This document shows, in pieces, positions 50,304 through 56,299 of a stretch of 64,000 nt of DNA (the stretch's first letter is position 1; each line of letters opens with the position of its first letter). Made by a program: the position numbers and the translations under genes. A model generated the notes under the pieces. The model did not search any database. It had not been told where the DNA came from and saw nothing but the letters and a program-made list of their open reading frames with translations. The DNA is from Bradyrhizobium sp. CCGUVB1N3 (lineage in GTDB: Bacteria > Pseudomonadota > Alphaproteobacteria > Rhizobiales > Xanthobacteraceae). The stretch lies in contig NZ_JANADR010000001.1 of the NCBI RefSeq assembly GCF_024199925.1, forward strand, positions 744,001 through 808,000. Direction: 5' to 3'.

Positions 50304-51644
50304 TCAGTCCTTCCAAGGATCGAACTCGCCTTCGCCGGCCATGGCGACGGCGAAGGGCCGCAGCGTGTGCAGCACCTTGACCGTGCCGGCGTGCTGCGCG
50401 AGCACGTCGGGCAGGCGCCGATAGGCCATCGGGCTTTCATCGAGGTCGGCACCGATCAGGGTGACGCCACGCTCGTTCAGCCAGCGATCCATCTCGACGC
50501 GGGTGAAGCGCCGCTTCGCCTCCTTGCGTCCGAACAGGCGGCCGGCGCCGTGGACGGTCGAGTAGAGCGAAGCCTTCGCTTCAGGACTGTCGACACCTTC
50601 GAGGATGACGGCGTCGTCGCCCATGGAGCCGCCGACAAATCCCTTCTGGCCAGGGAATGCCGGCGTCGCGCCCTTGCGCACCACCCACAGATCCCGGCCG
50701 TTGTGCGTCTCGCGCCAGGCATAGTTGTGGTGGTTGTGGATGCGTTCGGTGACGCTGCCGCCGATGATCTGGCGGACGCGCTCCACGACCCACTCGCGGC
50801 CTGCATAGGCGTAACGCCCGGCGAGCTGCATCGCCGCGATGTAGCGGCGGCCGAGCTCGGAGTCCTCGTCGACGACGGCGGGCGGGACGTTCATGCCGTC
50901 CTTGCCGCCGGCGGCCTTGAGGTAGCGCGTCGCCGAGGTATGCCCGAGACCGCGGCTGCCGAAATGGACGCCGATCCAGACAAAACCGTCCTCGTCGCGC
51001 ATCAGGTCGACATAGTGGTTGCCGGACCCGACCGTCCCGAGCTGGGCGACGGCCTTTTGCCGATAGGCCTCCATGTCGCTCTCGCGCCACGCGTCGCCAT
51101 CGTCGAACAGCTTGTGCTCGGCGCGCTCGGCATTGGCCCGGCCGATCCCGAAGGAGATCGTCTTCGCGACGTCGCGGATGATCGTGGGCACGATACCTGC
51201 GATGTCGTCGAAACGCGTGTCGAGACGCGCGGCCATGTTGCCGCAGCCGATGTCGAAGCCGACGCCGGAGATGCTGATCTGCTTCTCATAGGCGATGACT
51301 CCGCCGACCGGTTGGGCGTAGCCGAGATGACCGTCCGCGCAGATCACGCCGGACACGACGTTGCCGATCGCCATGCAGTTGCGCATCTGCGCCACGGTCG
51401 CCTCATCGTGCTCGCCGAAGATCTTCAGCGGCGCATTCTGGAAGCGCGGCTCCTGCGGGCGAAGGTTGACGATCTCGCTTGCGGCCGCGTTGGCCTCGCG
51501 TGCCAGATGTACTTTACGCGCGGAGTCGCGGTAGAGGCACCAGGCAGGCTGGCCGCGTCCTTCGCCGACGCGCGAATCCGGATCGACGCCGGCGGCGAGG
51601 CACAGTTCGCGGGCACGTTCCTGGTAGGGATCGGGTCGTCGCAT
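50304..51644 (-). CDS. rtcB: RNA-splicing ligase RtcB
   Basis: A 446-residue GTP- and Mn-dependent ligase that seals RNA 2',3'-cyclic-phosphate or 3'-phosphate ends to 5'-OH ends. All active-site motifs are present: D131-IGC134-GN, GSGNH210-Y, GVHFGSRGLGH (His227), HNHHN (303-307) and the guanylylated His in TVHGAGR (His365). AGTAGGAGC precedes the ATG giving MRRPDPY; a longer frame with 17 more codons is less likely. A Ro60 gene lies on the same strand about 2 kb away with Y-RNA-like units upstream of it, so RNA repair or tRNA healing is the likely role. Confidence 0.94.
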   Translation of the reverse strand: MRRPDPYQERARELCLAAGVDPDSRVGEGRGQPAWCLYRDSARKVHLAREANAAASEIVNLRPQEPRFQNAPLKIFGEHDEATVAQMRNCMAIGNVVSGVICADGHLGYAQPVGGVIAYEKQISISGVGFDIGCGNMAARLDTRFDDIAGIVPTIIRDVAKTISFGIGRANAERAEHKLFDDGDAWRESDMEAYRQKAVAQLGTVGSGNHYVDLMRDEDGFVWIGVHFGSRGLGHTSATRYLKAAGGKDGMNVPPAVVDEDSELGRRYIAAMQLAGRYAYAGREWVVERVRQIIGGSVTERIHNHHNYAWRETHNGRDLWVVRKGATPAFPGQKGFVGGSMGDDAVILEGVDSPEAKASLYSTVHGAGRLFGRKEAKRRFTRVEMDRWLNERGVTLIGADLDESPMAYRRLPDVLAQHAGTVKVLHTLRPFAVAMAGEGEFDPWKD

Positions 51645-51748
51645 GGTCTTGCTCCTACTTCGTTCCGCGCGCGCTGTCTGGCTCGCACGGGGCATTGCCG
51701 GCTAGCTCGAGTTGCCCGGAGCTGCCGGAACTTCGTCAAAAATAATTA

Positions 51749-51799
51749 AACCGGTCGGTTGACAATCGATCCCGGGCGCTTATGTTAAACCACATGGTT
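51749..51799 (+). promoter_or_regulatory. Sigma-70 promoter and two operator palindromes of the ArsR gene
   Basis: TTGACA (51759-51764) and TATGTT (51781-51786) are separated by 16 bases. AACCGGTCGGTT (51749-51760) overlaps the -35 and AACCACATGGTT (51788-51799) overlaps the transcription start. Their similar AACC...GGTT form suggests one repressor, the ArsR protein encoded next. The predicted transcript begins at or within a base or two of the ATG at 51794. Confidence 0.7.
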
Positions 51800-52141
51800 G
51801 AACAATTCTCGCATCTCGACGCCGTTTTTCACGCCCTCGCGGATCCGACGCGGCGGGCAATGCTTGGTCATCTGGCGGAACGGGAGCTCACGATCGGGGA
51901 GCTCGCGACACCGTTCAGCATGAGTTTCGCGGGCGCCTCGAAGCACGTTCGGGTGCTGGAGAATGCAGGCCTCGTCACACGCACGATCCGCGGCCGTACC
52001 CATCTGTGTCGGCTGCAAGCCGCACGGCTCGCGGAAGCCGATGCCTGGCTGCGACGTTACGAACGCTTCTGGAATGACAGACTCGACTCGTTGGAGACGC
52101 TGCTGCGCGCTGAAGACGAGGCGCAGGCAAAAAAGAAGTGA
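51794..52141 (+). CDS. ArsR-family (SRPBCC-associated) transcriptional regulator
   Basis: A 115-residue winged-helix repressor: FHALADPTRRAMLGHLAERELTIGELATPFSMSFAGASKHVRVLENAGLVTRTIRGR. No metal-binding CxC motif is visible, as usual for ArsR proteins encoded beside SRPBCC genes. I chose ATG 51794: the ATG at 51782 lies inside the -10 element. This implies a leaderless mRNA. It overlaps the start region of the SRPBCC gene and forms one operon with it. Confidence 0.9.
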   Translation: MVEQFSHLDAVFHALADPTRRAMLGHLAERELTIGELATPFSMSFAGASKHVRVLENAGLVTRTIRGRTHLCRLQAARLAEADAWLRRYERFWNDRLDSLETLLRAEDEAQAKKK

Positions 52142-52152
52142 GGAGCAGAACG

Positions 52153-52686
52153 ATGGATGCAAAGACCAAGCCCGATGCCTATGGCGAACTGATCGAACCG
52201 ACGACGCTGAAGCTTCAGCGTCTGCTGCCCGGACCGATCGAGCGTGTCTGGGCCTATCTCACCGACAGCGACCTTCGCCGCAAATGGCTGGCGGCGGGCG
52301 CGATGGAGATGAGGGGCGGTGCACCCTTCGAGTTCGTCTGGCGCAACGATGAACTCAACGATCCCCCAAGCAGGCGCCCGGCCGGTTTTCCCGAAGAGCA
52401 TCGGATGCAGAGCCGGATCACCGAGTGCGATCCGCCGCGAAAGCTTTCGATTGCCTGGAGCAACAGCGGCGACGTGACCTTCGAACTGGAGCCGAAGGGA
52501 AAGGGCGTGGTGCTCACCGTGATCCATCGTCGTTTGCCCGACCGCCCGACCATGCTCAAGGTCAGCGCCGGCTGGCACATGCATCTCGACATTCTGGTCG
52601 CGCGCATCTCCGGCGAGGAGCCGGCACCGTTCTGGGATGGCTGGGCTCGGCTTCAGCAGGACTACGACCGGCGGCTGCCGGCCTGA
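52153..52686 (+). CDS. SRPBCC-family (AHSA1-like) protein
   Basis: A 177-residue START/Bet v1-fold protein: RLLPGPIERVWAYLTDSDLRRKWLAAG, then a beta-sheet stretch and GWHMHLDILVARISGEEPAPFWDGWARLQQDYDRRL. These bind hydrophobic ligands in a cavity. GAGGAG precedes the ATG. Operon with the ArsR regulator, DUF899 protein and a membrane protein. Confidence 0.9.
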   Translation: MDAKTKPDAYGELIEPTTLKLQRLLPGPIERVWAYLTDSDLRRKWLAAGAMEMRGGAPFEFVWRNDELNDPPSRRPAGFPEEHRMQSRITECDPPRKLSIAWSNSGDVTFELEPKGKGVVLTVIHRRLPDRPTMLKVSAGWHMHLDILVARISGEEPAPFWDGWARLQQDYDRRLPA

Positions 52687-52720
52687 CAGAACGCCCCAAA
52701 CAACAAACAGGAGGTTAGCT

Positions 52721-53467
52721 ATGCAGACTCATGCCGTTTCGGCGCAGGAGTGGGAAGCTGCGCGTCAGCAGTTGCTGGTCAAGGAGAAGGCTGCAACCCG
52801 AGCCCGTGACGCACTGGCCGCCGAGCGGCGGCGGATGCCGTGGCTCGCGGTGGAGAAGAGTTACGCCTTCGACGGACCCGAGGGCAAAGCGAGCTTGCCC
52901 GACTTGTTCGAGGGCCGCCATCAACTCATCGTCTACCGGGCTTTCTTCGAGCCGGGCGTGTTTGGCTGGCCCGACCACGCTTGCCGTGGCTGCTCCATGG
53001 TGGCCGATCAGGTCGCCCATCTCGCTCATCTGAACGCGCGCGATACAACGCTCGTCTTTGTCTCGCGTGCGCCGCAGGCGGACATCGCGCGCCTCAAGGC
53101 ACGGATGGGATGGGAGATACCCTGGTACACGATCACAGACGACTTCGACGCCGACTTCGGCGTCGGCGAGTGGCACGGCACCAACGTGTTTTTCCGCGAC
53201 GGCAGCAAGCTCTTCCGCACCTATTTCATCAACAACCGCGGCGACGAGCAGATGGGAGGTACCTGGAACTACCTCGACATCACACCGCTCGGCCGGCAGG
53301 AGGTGTGGGAAGACTCGCCCGAGGGCTATCCCCAGACGCCGACCTACAAGTGGTGGAACTGGCATGACAATTACGAGGCAGGTGCGGCGCCCGACAAGAG
53401 ATGGGTCGAGGTGTCGGACGCCGGAGAGGCGGCGTTCCGGAAACAGCAGGCGAGCGCAAAGTCGTGA
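52721..53467 (+). CDS. DUF899-family thioredoxin-like protein
   Basis: A 248-residue protein with a thioredoxin-like fold of the DUF899 type. The segment FDGPEGKASLPDLFEGRHQLIVYRAFFEPGVFGWPDHACRGCSMVADQ holds the CxxC-like CRGC. FFRDGSKLFRTYFINNRGDEQMGGTWNYLDITPLGRQEVWEDSP is highly conserved in the family. ACAGGAGG precedes the ATG. Likely a redox-related protein; biochemical role unknown. Confidence 0.88.
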   Translation: MQTHAVSAQEWEAARQQLLVKEKAATRARDALAAERRRMPWLAVEKSYAFDGPEGKASLPDLFEGRHQLIVYRAFFEPGVFGWPDHACRGCSMVADQVAHLAHLNARDTTLVFVSRAPQADIARLKARMGWEIPWYTITDDFDADFGVGEWHGTNVFFRDGSKLFRTYFINNRGDEQMGGTWNYLDITPLGRQEVWEDSPEGYPQTPTYKWWNWHDNYEAGAAPDKRWVEVSDAGEAAFRKQQASAKS

Positions 53468-53718
53468 GCAAGACCGCGGCGATCGGCGCGGCCAATTGGC
53501 TACGCCTCGCGGCCGCGCCGACCTTCGCGATCATGGCGCTGCTGACGACCGTTCTTGGTGGCGGATCGGTGGACGCATTGTGTTCGACTGCAGGGGCATC
53601 GCCGTTCGGTGGAATGGTCCCGATGTACCTGCTGATGAGCGCCTTCCATTTGTCGCCCTGGCTGAAGCTGATCGGCAGCCGCGCGAGGCTGCATCGTGTG
53701 GGTGAAGGCACGGCGTAA
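53464..53718 (+). CDS. Small hypothetical membrane protein, 84 residues
   Basis: Two hydrophobic segments (AAPTFAIMALLTTVLGGG and GGMVPMYLLMSAFHLSPWLKLIG) with one Cys in DALCSTAGASPFGG, which resembles small membrane proteins that accompany DUF899 genes. Starts at GTG overlapping the upstream stop as GTGA, so it is translationally coupled. A strong hairpin terminator follows. Confidence 0.72.
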   Translation: MSKTAAIGAANWLRLAAAPTFAIMALLTTVLGGGSVDALCSTAGASPFGGMVPMYLLMSAFHLSPWLKLIGSRARLHRVGEGTA

Positions 53719-53726
53719 AACCGAGT

Positions 53727-53756
53727 GACCCGGGCGCGGGAGGCCGCGCCCGGGTC
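53727..53756. terminator. 13-bp GC-rich hairpin between convergent operons
   Basis: GACCCGGGCGCGG and CCGCGCCCGGGTC are exact complements around GAGG. It lies just after the plus-strand cassette and 15 bases before the 3' end of the minus-strand Ro60 gene, so it can terminate both transcripts. Confidence 0.7.
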
Positions 53757-53770
53757 GTTCGTGGGTCGCA

Positions 53771-55096
53771 TCAGTGCAACGTCATCTCTGACGCTGCGAT
53801 CCATGTGATCACGGCCTCCGAGAAGCCGTTGACGCGGGTCCAGGCGCCGTGACCGACACCGTGCTGATACGAGGCGACGTTCACCATCGTGCCCCGCGCC
53901 TTGGGCTCGGGCACCTGGTCGTGGCTCTGCTCGTCGGTGAAGACGATTAGGCGGTCGCCCTTGCGGTCGATCTCGGCAACGGCCTTGCCGAGATAGGTTC
54001 CGCCGTGCGGCTGCGAGTTGATGATCGCGTCCCGGAGCGCGAAGCCGCGGCGGGGCGGGACCTTCACGACCTCGTTGGAGAAGGTGAAGATCTCGACCTC
54101 GTCGCAGATCTCGCGTGCGAGGATGGCCAGACCACACGCCGCCTCCGCGCGCGTCATTTCCGACTGCGCAGAGAGGGCCGCGAACATCGAGCCCGACACG
54201 TCGATCAGGAGCCGCGTGCAGCCGGGCAGCCGCACATGGTCCTTGATCGACTTCAGCATCGCGGTTTCGAGCTCGGGCTCGAAATCCGGCGCGTAGCGCG
54301 CCGCCGTGATGAAGCGATAGGGCAGGATACGATCCGTCCGCATCGCCTCGATCGAGTCCGCGATCGTCTCGCGCGGCACCTGCGCAGTCTGCATCAGTCG
54401 CAGGTTGCGCAGCAGTGCCATGCCGCCGAGCTTCTTCTCGGCGATCAGCCGCTCGAAGCTCTCGCGCTTGTTCTTTCCGGCCGAGAGCGAGACCTCCCAG
54501 GTGTCGGGGGAGGCGAGCTCGCCATCGACGAGCTGCTTCCACACCTTCTCCTGCGCGGCGTCCTTCGGCTTGGCGTGCACCAGGAACAGCACGTCCCTGA
54601 TCCGCACCGTGCCGTCCCGGTCGTACTTGGCGAGCTGATAGGCGTCGAACTTGGTCAGCGCGCGGGCAAGCCCCTTCTTGACCTGCGCTGAGACCGGCTG
54701 ACGCTTGCGCTGCTGCTGCGGGCCGAGCGCGTCCGCCCAGTAGATCGCGAGCAGCTCCGTCATCTCGTCGGGGCGCTGGATCACCTGCGCGAGCGTATCG
54801 GCAACGAGGGGACGATGCTTCTCGCTACGCGCCATCTCGCGGACCACGAGGAGTGGCGCGTGCCGCAGCTTCATGACCTCGCGCGCCTCGATCGCAAGCT
54901 CCGCCACGTGGGCAGGAGCGACCTTGGGCACGAGCGCCTTGATGCGGTCGGCGATCGAGACGCCGTCCTCGTAGAACTGGTCCTCCCAGAGGAGGCAGTT
55001 CATCAGCGCGCGCTTCAGCTCCATCTCGGGCGTGAAGCGCACGGCGCGCGCGCCCTCACGCGTGAAGGCGCGAACGATCTTGTTGAGCCTGACCAT
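53771..55096 (-). CDS. rsr: TROVE-domain Ro60 (Rsr) protein
   Basis: A 441-residue ring-shaped RNA-binding protein of the Ro60 family. Residues about 10-290 are the HEAT-repeat-like TROVE domain. Residues 295-441 are a von Willebrand A domain with an intact MIDAS: D299-VSGS303, Thr367 in HGGTYLG and Asp388 in VFTDEQS. Ro60 proteins bind misfolded RNAs in the ring cavity and Y RNAs on the outside. AAGAGGAGG precedes the ATG. The four Y-RNA-like units directly upstream on the same strand and an rtcB gene nearby match the bacterial RNA-repair arrangement known from Salmonella (established knowledge). Confidence 0.92.
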   Translation of the reverse strand: MVRLNKIVRAFTREGARAVRFTPEMELKRALMNCLLWEDQFYEDGVSIADRIKALVPKVAPAHVAELAIEAREVMKLRHAPLLVVREMARSEKHRPLVADTLAQVIQRPDEMTELLAIYWADALGPQQQRKRQPVSAQVKKGLARALTKFDAYQLAKYDRDGTVRIRDVLFLVHAKPKDAAQEKVWKQLVDGELASPDTWEVSLSAGKNKRESFERLIAEKKLGGMALLRNLRLMQTAQVPRETIADSIEAMRTDRILPYRFITAARYAPDFEPELETAMLKSIKDHVRLPGCTRLLIDVSGSMFAALSAQSEMTRAEAACGLAILAREICDEVEIFTFSNEVVKVPPRRGFALRDAIINSQPHGGTYLGKAVAEIDRKGDRLIVFTDEQSHDQVPEPKARGTMVNVASYQHGVGHGAWTRVNGFSEAVITWIAASEMTLH

Positions 55097-55137: not shown

Positions 55138-55249
55138 CCGGGGAACAGGCGAGCCTGTACTGCCCTTTCGGGCTCCGTTGAGCGGGCTCAATCTCCGAGG
55201 AGAGACGAGGCACCGCCGATCACGAAGTAACAGGGCTCTTCACCACCGG
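55138..55249 (-). ncRNA. Y-RNA-like unit D, nearest the Ro60 gene
   Basis: Core: 5' TGGTGAA followed by inner-stem strand GAGCCCTG, and 3' strand CAGGCTC followed by GCCTGTTCC. The inner stem pairs with one bulged C. The outer stem is short (CCGG/CCGG). Inside is TTACTTCG as in the other units, then hairpins TCTC/GAGA, TTGAG/CTCAA and GCCC-GAAA-GGGC with a GNRA tetraloop. The tRNA-like part is degenerate. It ends 41 bases before the Ro60 ATG. RNA boundaries are inferred from pairing, not known. Confidence 0.62.
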
Positions 55250-55267
55250 GGATGGGGACGAAAGCGA

Positions 55268-55428
55268 CACGATCCGGGAACAGGCGATTGCTGTGACCCG
55301 GCCAGCTTGCGCTGGCCGGAAAGTGCTCTGTCCACTGAGCTACCGGTGCATGGAACACCGGACGGGATTCGAACCCGCGACCTCTCGCGTTGCAGGCGAA
55401 GTAACAGAAATCTTCACCACGGATCGTG
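55268..55428 (-). ncRNA. Y-RNA-like unit C with permuted tRNA module
   Basis: The best unit. Outer stem CACGATCCG/CGGATCGTG (9 bp, perfect) encloses the core TGGTGAA ... GCCTGTTCC. Inner stem GATTTCTG/CAGCAATC has one mismatch. Inside, in order: TTACTTCG; a T-arm GCGGG-TTCGAAT-CCCGT with the exact tRNA T-loop; an acceptor-like hairpin CCGGTG/CACCGG closed by a 7-base loop; a D-arm GCTC-AGTGGACA-GAGC with the tRNA GG; and CCGGCCAGC-GCAA-GCTGGCCGG. T-arm before D-arm means a circularly permuted tRNA layout, as in YrlA-type Y RNAs. Confidence 0.78.
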
Positions 55429-55434
55429 ATGGGG

Positions 55435-55580
55435 TTGGCGGGGAACGATCGATCCTGCTGCTGCTCTTTGAGCTTACTGAGCTACGGCATTTCAGCCGGC
55501 GGGAGTTGAGCCCGCGACCTCCGGCCAACAATAGAGACCGGCGCTCTGACCGAAGTAACAGACATCTTCACCACCGCCAA
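55435..55580 (-). ncRNA. Y-RNA-like unit B with permuted tRNA module
   Basis: Outer stem TTGGCGG/CCGCCAA (7 bp, perfect). Core TGGTGAA and GATCGTTCC. Inner stem GATGTCTG/CAGGATC pairs with one bulge. Inside: TTACTTCGG; T-arm GCGGG-CTCAACT-CCCGC with a T-loop-like loop; CGGC/GCCG acceptor-like hairpin; D-arm GCTC-AGTAAGCTCAAA-GAGC. Different stem sequences but identical pairing to unit C, which is compensatory evidence for structure. Starts six bases from unit C's end. Confidence 0.75.
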
Positions 55581-55611
55581 GCCGATGCTTTCGAGTCGGC
55601 CTTTGATGGGT

Positions 55612-55794
55612 ACGCTGGGGAACGGGCGATATCGGCCTTCAGTGACGACAACACAGGAACTGTCCTTGCGAACGAGTCCTGCGCCGGGCCGCGTGCAAGC
55701 CTTTCTCGAGGCCGCATCCCGGTGCGTGTGTCAAAGGCGGGAGGAATACCCGCTTTCCTTGGCGAGAAGTATCCGAGATCTTCACCACCTGCGT
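55612..55794 (-). ncRNA. Y-RNA-like unit A, first of the array
   Basis: Outer stem ACGCAGG/CCAGCGT (6 pairs with one A-A mismatch). Core TGGTGAA and GCCCGTTCC. Inner stem GATCTCGG/CCGATATC with a single mismatch at the same place as in unit C. Inside: ATACTTC, then a T-arm-like hairpin GCGGG-TATTCCT-CCCGC, GCCT/AGGC and AGGA/TCCT hairpins. Farther from a tRNA than units B and C, but the stem architecture is the same. Confidence 0.65.
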
Positions 55795-56034
55795 CGGTTG
55801 AGCCGCGAGATTCGCGGCAAACCGATTCACGAAAATTCTATCGCGGCGCTGTCGACGCGCCGCAGTTTGCGAACCATTCGGGTTCGCTCTGCCATCGGTG
55901 TCCGGCTCATCGCCTCGTTCCCTCCGGCAGGCCCCGCGCGCTTGGGCACGCGCTTCTCCAGCGCGAGCCCCGGGATCCGGGTCTCCCGTTCCGGCATCAT
56001 GCCGGGGTATTCGAACGGGCCGCGCGGCGGGCAA
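55795..56034. other. Gene-free stretch upstream of the Y-RNA-like array
   Basis: No convincing coding sequence on either strand; several open frames exist but lack start signals or similarity. On the minus strand CCCGTTC/GAACGGG encloses CCGGCA/TGCCGG, a compound hairpin near 55.99-56.02 kb. The promoter of the array could lie here. Its role is otherwise unknown. Confidence 0.4.
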
Positions 56035-56111
56035 TAAAAAACCCTCCGGAGCGGCTGGCTCGGGAGGGTCCGTGAGAAGCGGACTTTCGATCTCGCTCTC
56101 AAGCGAGATCG
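56035..56111 (-). terminator. Three-hairpin terminator/attenuator-like element
   Basis: On the minus strand, CGATCTCGCT-TGAG-AGCGAGATCG (10-bp stem) is followed by GTCCG/CGGAC, then ACCCTCC/GGAGGGT directly followed by TTTTTTATT. The last is a textbook intrinsic terminator. A 34-codon open frame beginning ATG at 56203 ends with its TGA inside the loop of the first hairpin, giving an attenuator-like layout. It ends a transcript from upstream or controls read-through toward the Y-RNA-like array. Confidence 0.7.
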
Positions 56112-56299
56112 CTCCCATGAGCCGGGCATGCGCTATCGATCGGTCCGAGACCGTTCGACAGTCGTGCAAATCTTTCGTAGCGGTAGTGCATCGCTCGGTT
56201 CATGTTGTTTTCGCGCGAACGGAAGTGTTCGCGAGGGCGCGGGACATACGCCCGCAACTTGCGGATGTCAAGCGTGGGTTGAGAGACCAAGGGAGCGCG

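Follow-up and report, generated by a model that had tools for sequence, protein, structure and literature searches.

To our knowledge, work on bacterial Y RNAs has mostly dealt with one or two of them next to a Ro60 gene, and Chen reportedly noted in 2014 that every species has one or more tRNA-like Y RNAs. The reports cited here describe several related systems. In Deinococcus radiodurans, the Ro60 family protein Rsr, a Y RNA and PNPase form the particle called RYPER (PMC4726728), and the lower stem of bacterial Y RNAs binds Rsr while PNPase is tethered (PMC4726728, PMC8394870). Modifications of the tRNA type have been reported in the tRNA-like head of YrlA (PMC8394870), YrlA has been predicted in mycobacteria (PMC9569102) and TROVE proteins are found in some jumbo phages (PMC7824862). 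Salmonella carries an rsr-yrlBA-rtcBA operon (PMC7790460), and the locus examined here likewise brings together a Ro60 family gene, Y RNAs and RtcB. Unlike in Salmonella, the Y RNAs here precede ro60, matches to RtcA and RtcR are absent and an attenuator-like leader is found instead. The available part of PMC2965389 holds nothing on this locus, and a term search found neither Y RNA nor Ro60 in the main text of two Bradyrhizobium transcript papers.

The window, the 64-kb stretch of DNA that was analysed, is part of a 10.4 Mb Bradyrhizobium genome. On its minus strand a promoter-like site and a leader come first, then the four RNA units and ro60, and last a terminator-like hairpin and rtcB. Unit A (55612..55794) combines a handle shared by all units with a conserved head that is not tRNA-like, here called class A. 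Unit B (55435..55580) has the shared handle, a T-arm, a 4-bp acceptor hairpin and an irregular D-arm, unit C (55268..55428) has the handle, a full permuted tRNA and an extra hairpin, and unit D (55138..55249) has the handle and a tRNA-like head that is decayed in this genome. The initial annotation had described four minus-strand units with common 5' and 3' motifs, and all four were found between the leader and ro60, each containing TGGTGAAGA and TCG-N3-GTTCC. The units are separated by 31, 6 and 18 bp, and the array stretch has no run of five T. With gaps this short and no such run, separate promoters and terminators for each unit are unlikely. The ro60 ATG lies 41 bp after unit D, and a generic scan found no terminator between them. 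We favour, at a probability of roughly 0.7, the reading that the array encodes a set of bacterial Y RNAs that are transcribed together with ro60 and later separated by cleavage; Ro60 would hold the handle, and the heads would be interchangeable.

The ro60 gene (53771..55096, minus strand) encodes a TROVE domain protein of 441 aa, which scores 65 bits against a Pfam cut-off of 23. It is not an Rsr equivalog, as it reaches 20.2 bits with NF041674 against an NCBIfam cut-off of 900; it differs in both length and score from the Rsr of the D. radiodurans RYPER. The predicted structure (pLDDT 83.0) contains a helical domain and a vWA fold, as in Ro60. By sequence and fold, the nearest solved structures are the Ro60 of Thermus phage phiLo (9l5y) and the TROVE protein 9kop, though in this protein-only comparison identity is just 26–29%. 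Among the best 80 of 113 relatives, the nearest named one is from Bradyrhizobium iriomotense NBRC 102520 (96%).

A terminator-like hairpin with a 13-pair stem (53727..53756, minus strand) lies just 3' of ro60; the scan that yielded it found two sites, compared with 1.4 expected in shuffles. The rtcB gene (50304..51695, minus strand; RNA ligase family, Pfam RtcB 7.4e-66) is about 2 kb from ro60. RtcB matches were present in 42 of 83 loci, 30 of them at 89–96% identity and 12 at 28–39%. In 28 of its 30 loci the closer type lies no more than about 120 bp after ro60, and in the other two (L044 and L095) the gap is about 2 kb, as in the window. The more distant type is downstream of ro60 in 10 of 12 loci. 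In the window, the gap is occupied by a plus-strand block (51782–53718) encoding an ArsR-type regulator, an AHSA1 protein and a DUF899 protein, and this block may be an insertion, since in 28 of 30 loci ro60 is directly followed by RtcB of the same type. A search of the genome at E<=1e-3 gave no match to RtcA (PF01137) or RtcR (PF06956), and with neither found the locus does not qualify as an RtcR-controlled RNA repair operon.

When Rfam was searched at gathering scores, no match was returned anywhere in the 64-kb window. At E<=5 the YrlA model (RF02553) recognized unit C (37.2 bits) and unit B (20.7 bits), well short of its gathering score of 69. The suggested kinship with the Rfam Y RNAs therefore held for the permuted architecture, which unit C shares with YrlA, and did not extend to family membership, as every unit is below the gathering score. 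Like YrlA, the units have an end-to-end stem, the permuted order of T-arm, closed acceptor hairpin and D-arm, and a (C/U)UAC step following the inner stem. The permuted order is complete in C, partial in B, absent from A and decayed in D. All the same, in the wide sense of an end-to-end stem with an internal loop, encoded beside a Ro60 gene, the units are bacterial Y RNAs. They differ from YrlA in forming a tandem set with different heads and, by eye, in the Ro60-contact motif, which is UGGUGAA/GNNNGUUCC here and CGAAUGC/ACUUGUCG in the Rfam consensus. This difference in contact sequence and the low YrlA scores both count against reading the array as a Y RNA set.

In a wider survey with the YrlA model at E<=1e-3, 140 of 398 genomes had matches, as did 6 of 14 control genomes, and 3 of the 398 scored above the cut-off; stricter Infernal filters were used in this survey, as in the genus and class surveys described below. 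Because sub-threshold matches are frequent even in controls, they were never used alone as evidence, and in many cases they are presumably ordinary tandem tRNAs. Tandem YrlA is not unique to the Bradyrhizobium lineage. In a phylum sample, and judged by model matches alone, one genome (G610) has three in a row at 63.8–85.3 bits, and G466, G521, G614 and G692 have two each.

Each unit was said to be bounded by its own outer stem and to carry its own inner stem. When the 5' strand of each outer stem was scored against all 3' strands, the own partner topped every row, with scores of 4.5, 7.5, 9 and 4 for A to D. The stem of A contains one mismatch, and that of D has just 4 bp and ties, as its 5' strand scores 4 with the 3' strand of C as well. 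The inner stems are present, but they are less private than claimed; the 5' strand of C scores 6.5 with the 3' strand of B, equal to the score with its own partner. As the units in this matrix had been picked partly by stem score, an order-only control was run for the outer stems, in which motifs were paired by their order in a fixed register with no stem scoring. Forty-three strictly alternating arrays qualified. Own stems formed a mean of 5.6 of 6 pairs (n=167) and foreign combinations 3.7 (n=492), and the true assignment was the best in 43 of 43 arrays, with ties in three.

These stems bear on a different explanation, that the units are a cis-acting structured leader of the ro60 message, for example for autoregulation by Ro60, and not free RNAs. 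Their position between a promoter-like site and ro60, with no terminator seen before the ATG, would suit such a leader. But the outer stems close every unit on itself, as would be expected of free RNAs, related Y RNAs exist as free RNAs (PMC4726728), and in three loci (L097, L102 and L110) the units are 1.7–2 kb upstream of ro60. We consider a cis-acting leader improbable.

To gauge covariation, 32 tRNA-headed units from 21 sources were aligned by sequence only, a named structure was counted on the alignment, and pair counts were compared with shuffled and slid controls instead of using R-scape. In this alignment, 94.4% of cells are paired. Both sides have changed in 118 cells, compared with a mean of 29.1 when shuffled and 8–21 with slid partners, and such double changes occur at 17 of 26 pairs, including all six outer and all five acceptor pairs. 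The D-stem hardly varies among the 32 units and is therefore uninformative. With double changes so far above both controls, the initial proposal that sequence changes with pairing kept, and hence reflects RNA structure, is well founded.

The acceptor hairpin, which spans the permuted join, is paired in 97.2% of cells. This speaks directly to whether the region is simply a degenerate tRNA gene cluster. ARAGORN does call a tRNA-Cys within unit C (55336–55425, minus strand), and sub-threshold YrlA matches are as widespread as described above, controls included. Nevertheless, covarying acceptor pairs across the join are unexpected for two neighbouring tRNAs, the head of unit A is of a different kind, and the handles are conserved and tied to Ro60 (see below). 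The last two points and the covariation leave a tRNA cluster barely credible. The identity of the array accounts for the ARAGORN call here, and similar arrays may have been misannotated as tRNA genes.

A covariance model, R1, was built from the 32-unit alignment, in which unit C is a training member and A, B and D were held out. In the window at E<=0.01, R1 found only the four unit places, with E-values of 1.3e-32 for C (training), 3.8e-20 for B, 3.1e-12 for D and 3.6e-7 for A. Locus searches with R1, and with the class-A model R2 described below, covered 40 chosen sources. A search of related genomes had been proposed with a model of the four units; carried out with the 32-unit model, it showed that the same units recur beside Ro60.

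In unit C, the head consists of a T-arm, a 7-bp acceptor with a TCCAT loop and a D-arm, and is a full permuted tRNA. Unit B, which had been credited with the same structure, has it only in part, with a 4-bp acceptor and, as read by eye, an irregular D-loop; units A and D contain no intact permuted tRNA. In an alignment of six D units, four have an intact head, and the head is decayed in the window and in L044. Across Bradyrhizobium arrays, the second unit ranges from about 69 to 146 nt. Most C-type heads in the genus have a 7-bp acceptor, frequently with an NCCAU loop, and an NCCA-like acceptor loop is present in 36 of 73 parsed 7-bp heads. Such loops may be relics of real tRNA genes. A GNRA loop ends 28 of the 55 heads with a 5–6-bp acceptor, many of which are D units. 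Unit 2 of one locus (L103:259-416) has a permuted head with a Leu-type D-arm (TGGCGGAATGG), which sets it apart from the other units inspected.

The possibility that heads copy particular tRNAs found no support. In the 38 of 131 heads listed, the best match to a host tRNA was just 0.73–0.82, and host tRNAs match other host tRNAs at 0.64–1.0, a range that encloses these values. The commonest best match over the 131 heads, a tally that includes many copies of the same C unit from close relatives, was tRNA-Asn (51), followed by tRNA-Arg (23) and then 13 other kinds. The array had been called target-diverse, and in the sense of copying different tRNAs that description is not supported, as the heads have no clear link to particular host tRNAs. 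The related suggestion that the units are guides selecting RNA targets for repair could draw on heads that differ in sequence and on the RtcB gene nearby. With no conserved unpaired guide segment noticed and heads with no clear link to tRNA kinds, we regard guides as highly improbable.

The class-A head of unit A has no Rfam match. Across 24 sequences it is conserved around CGUACCGUGGAG, a hairpin and GUGNCGCGGG. In 15 of these sequences, from which the structure was also derived, its 13 pairs include 23 double-change cells, compared with 7.7 when shuffled and 0–8 when slid. Two of five measures were weaker: the number of pairs changed on both sides was reached by 10 of 500 shuffles and the number of pair types by 5 of 500. 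The R2 model recovers unit A, a training member, at 6.2e-56. In the 40 sources, it found six loci outside the training set at 73.7–164.9 bits, and all other units scored 64.9 or less. The class-A head is kept from Bradyrhizobium to Hyphomonadaceae MAGs. At E<=1e-3, R2 had matches in 5 of 289 genomes of the class; the source genome scored 167 bits and the next (G814) 62.1 bits. The G814 match was considered as a class-A module away from Ro60 and was rejected, as 62 bits is within the range that other units reach via the shared handle.

A Ro60 match was found in 42 of 146 genus genomes. R1 matched at E<1e-12 in 40 of these 42 and in none of the 104 without Ro60, counts that ignore kinship among members of one genus; in one genome (G018) Ro60 was matched in two pieces. 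In the two Ro60 genomes with no strong R1 match, Ro60 is truncated and contains a stop (G118) or is reduced to a 39-aa remnant (G053); G053 has an R1 match of 1.2e-6 far from the remnant. Weaker R1 matches were present in 23 of the 104 Ro60-negative genomes, the best at 1.9e-11. Three were inspected; those in G080 and G082 are in tRNA-rich stretches and that in G027 is near a tRNA-Pro. Genus genomes with no Ro60 match also include two Y-RNA-like elements with a closed acceptor hairpin (L198:5414-5548 and L197:5360-5494), the first of which lies among 25 tRNA genes within 11 kb. In G036, which has two distant Ro60 copies (50–52%), an R1 match lies just upstream of each. The description of the array as tandem Y-RNA-like units upstream of a Ro60 gene is thus borne out by both position and co-occurrence, and the units are very probably Y RNAs.

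The number of units had been thought unusual. When 5' motifs were counted in the best 80 of 113 relatives, minus five with less than 1200 bp upstream, 44 of 50 Bradyrhizobium loci had four, four had three, and one each had two and one. Four is therefore the rule in the genus, and the order of the array, not just the number, recurs across it. In the same set, 23 other alphaproteobacterial loci had from one to seven motifs, with seven in two loci; the six counted in L080 include one distant motif. The background rate of the motif, at the far ends of loci, is once per 167,500 bases. With four motifs in 44 of 50 Bradyrhizobium loci and up to seven elsewhere, the array is not peculiar to the source genome. 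It is a real, conserved Y RNA array whose rarity the initial annotation overrated.

Units also precede Ro60 outside the class. In two MAGs titled Terriglobia and Acidiferrales they precede the same kind of Ro60; one of these loci has two 5' motifs and the other none, although both contain units that R1 detects. On a Deinococcus gobiensis plasmid, a Ro60 of this kind with 57% identity is preceded by a tRNA-headed unit and by a short one identified by eye. Among 26 viral contigs with this kind of Ro60 (L235–L260), some of which appear to be near-duplicates, 24 have an R1 match at E<=1e-3 within the flanks, be it upstream or downstream of Ro60, and 20 have one at E<1e-6. Some of these contigs have a short unit plus a tRNA-headed unit before Ro60.

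Two genus genomes retain traces of the locus with no array. Neither has a Ro60 or R1 match genome-wide. At the G121 locus, no array, Ro60 or RtcB was found in 11 kb and the leader is kept (87.6% over 468 bp), and the G093 locus, which keeps part of the leader (86.1%, 339 bp) and RtcB (92%), likewise shows no array and at most a doubtful Ro60 trace of 38 aa. Recurrence of the array, together with its absence where Ro60 has been lost, suggests one protein with a set of RNA partners.

The units could instead be redundant Y RNA copies that serve dosage, with heads that drift and no role specific to any unit. The second unit shrinks and grows between species, head D is decayed in the window and in L044, and the tRNA-like heads do not clearly favour any kind of tRNA. 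The decay of D and the changes in B fit drift as well as specialisation, so redundancy retains some weight. It accords poorly with the four motifs in 44 of 50 Bradyrhizobium loci (among the best 80 of 113 relatives), with a class-A head kept as far as Hyphomonadaceae MAGs with compensatory changes, and with the mostly 7-bp acceptors of C-type heads and the GNRA loops that end 28 of 55 heads with 5–6-bp acceptors. As order, number and class-A head persist, a kit of distinct heads is likelier than pure redundancy, which we consider unlikely on the whole.

The leader lies upstream of unit A on the minus strand. A candidate promoter, TTGACA-N17-TATGTC (56243..56271), is conserved in the leader alignment and is followed by a short ORF of 34 codons (56099..56203) ending in HGSDLA. 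Within this sORF is an antiterminator-like strand, GGCTCATGGGAG (56112..56123), that complements the 5' arm of a conserved terminator-like hairpin with a T run (56036..56068). The generic scan reported neither the leader promoter nor the leader terminator. Of 79 loci with units, 68 contain the terminator motif, and in 60 of the 68 an ORF, from a list filtered by end motif, stops 30–35 nt before it. In a sample of 21 related genomes, three with Ro60 each have a single occurrence of the terminator pattern, at this locus; the 18 others, of which at least 10 have no Ro60 match, have none. The duplex between the sORF segment and the terminator arm has a mean energy of -19.4 over 67 loci, compared with -14.2 (sd 0.40) when shuffled, and in L113 both the antiterminator and terminator-arm strands differ with pairing kept.

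Conservation of the sORF as a protein over most of its length was examined in 42 sORFs and found no support, as the share of synonymous differences was 27%, compared with 33% and 30% in shifted frames. The frame stays free of stops in these 42, and in the last 10 codons change is 0.012 and 0.033 at positions 1 and 2, compared with 0.114 at position 3. We propose 56036–56271 as a candidate translation-dependent attenuator whose direction of action is inferred.

Between the terminator and unit A is a highly conserved leader element of approximately 180 nt (55830..56010, minus strand), for which no Rfam match was found at gathering scores. It was detected at E<1e-30 in 39 of 40 array genomes, G036 being the exception, and in G121. 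It is among the most conserved parts of the locus, and is kept in G121 with neither array nor Ro60. The region 55860–56035, which overlaps it, folds better than shuffles (z -2.78).

On the preferred reading of a Y RNA set, the array and ro60 would be co-transcribed and the transcript then processed into single units; the anatomy of the locus is what suggests a single transcript, cut into units and subject to attenuation. By analogy with established work on Rsr and Y RNAs (PMC4726728, PMC8394870), Ro60 most likely grips the handle, comprising the outer stem, the UGGUGAA/GNNNGUUCC loop, the inner stem and the UUACUUCG-like step. The heads on the Ro60 ring may then recruit or gate, so that more than one kind of particle would result. 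Particles with a tRNA-mimic head (C, partly B) could dock tRNA-binding partners, or PNPase as in Deinococcus, and other particles would carry the second conserved head (A) or, in units with little or no head, none. With RtcB nearby, this would be a locus for RNA quality control and repair, and its expression is probably set by the leader attenuator rather than by RtcR.

A more specific version, which we put forward tentatively and consider doubtful, is that one Ro60 with a fixed kit of heads (an NCCA-loop mimic, a GNRA-loop mimic, class A and none) is coupled to a translation-sensing attenuator, providing RtcR-free sensing of tRNA damage. When ribosomes fail on the sORF, for example through tRNA damage, the antiterminator would form and the kit would be made.

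A conserved set of RNAs with a common handle and different heads would make head function directly testable in a cultivable symbiont, and the class-A head adds a conserved RNA module with no Rfam match. The leader also hints at a way of activating a locus of this type when RtcR is missing. If the kit and attenuator reading is true, a single locus would build several Ro60 particles at once.
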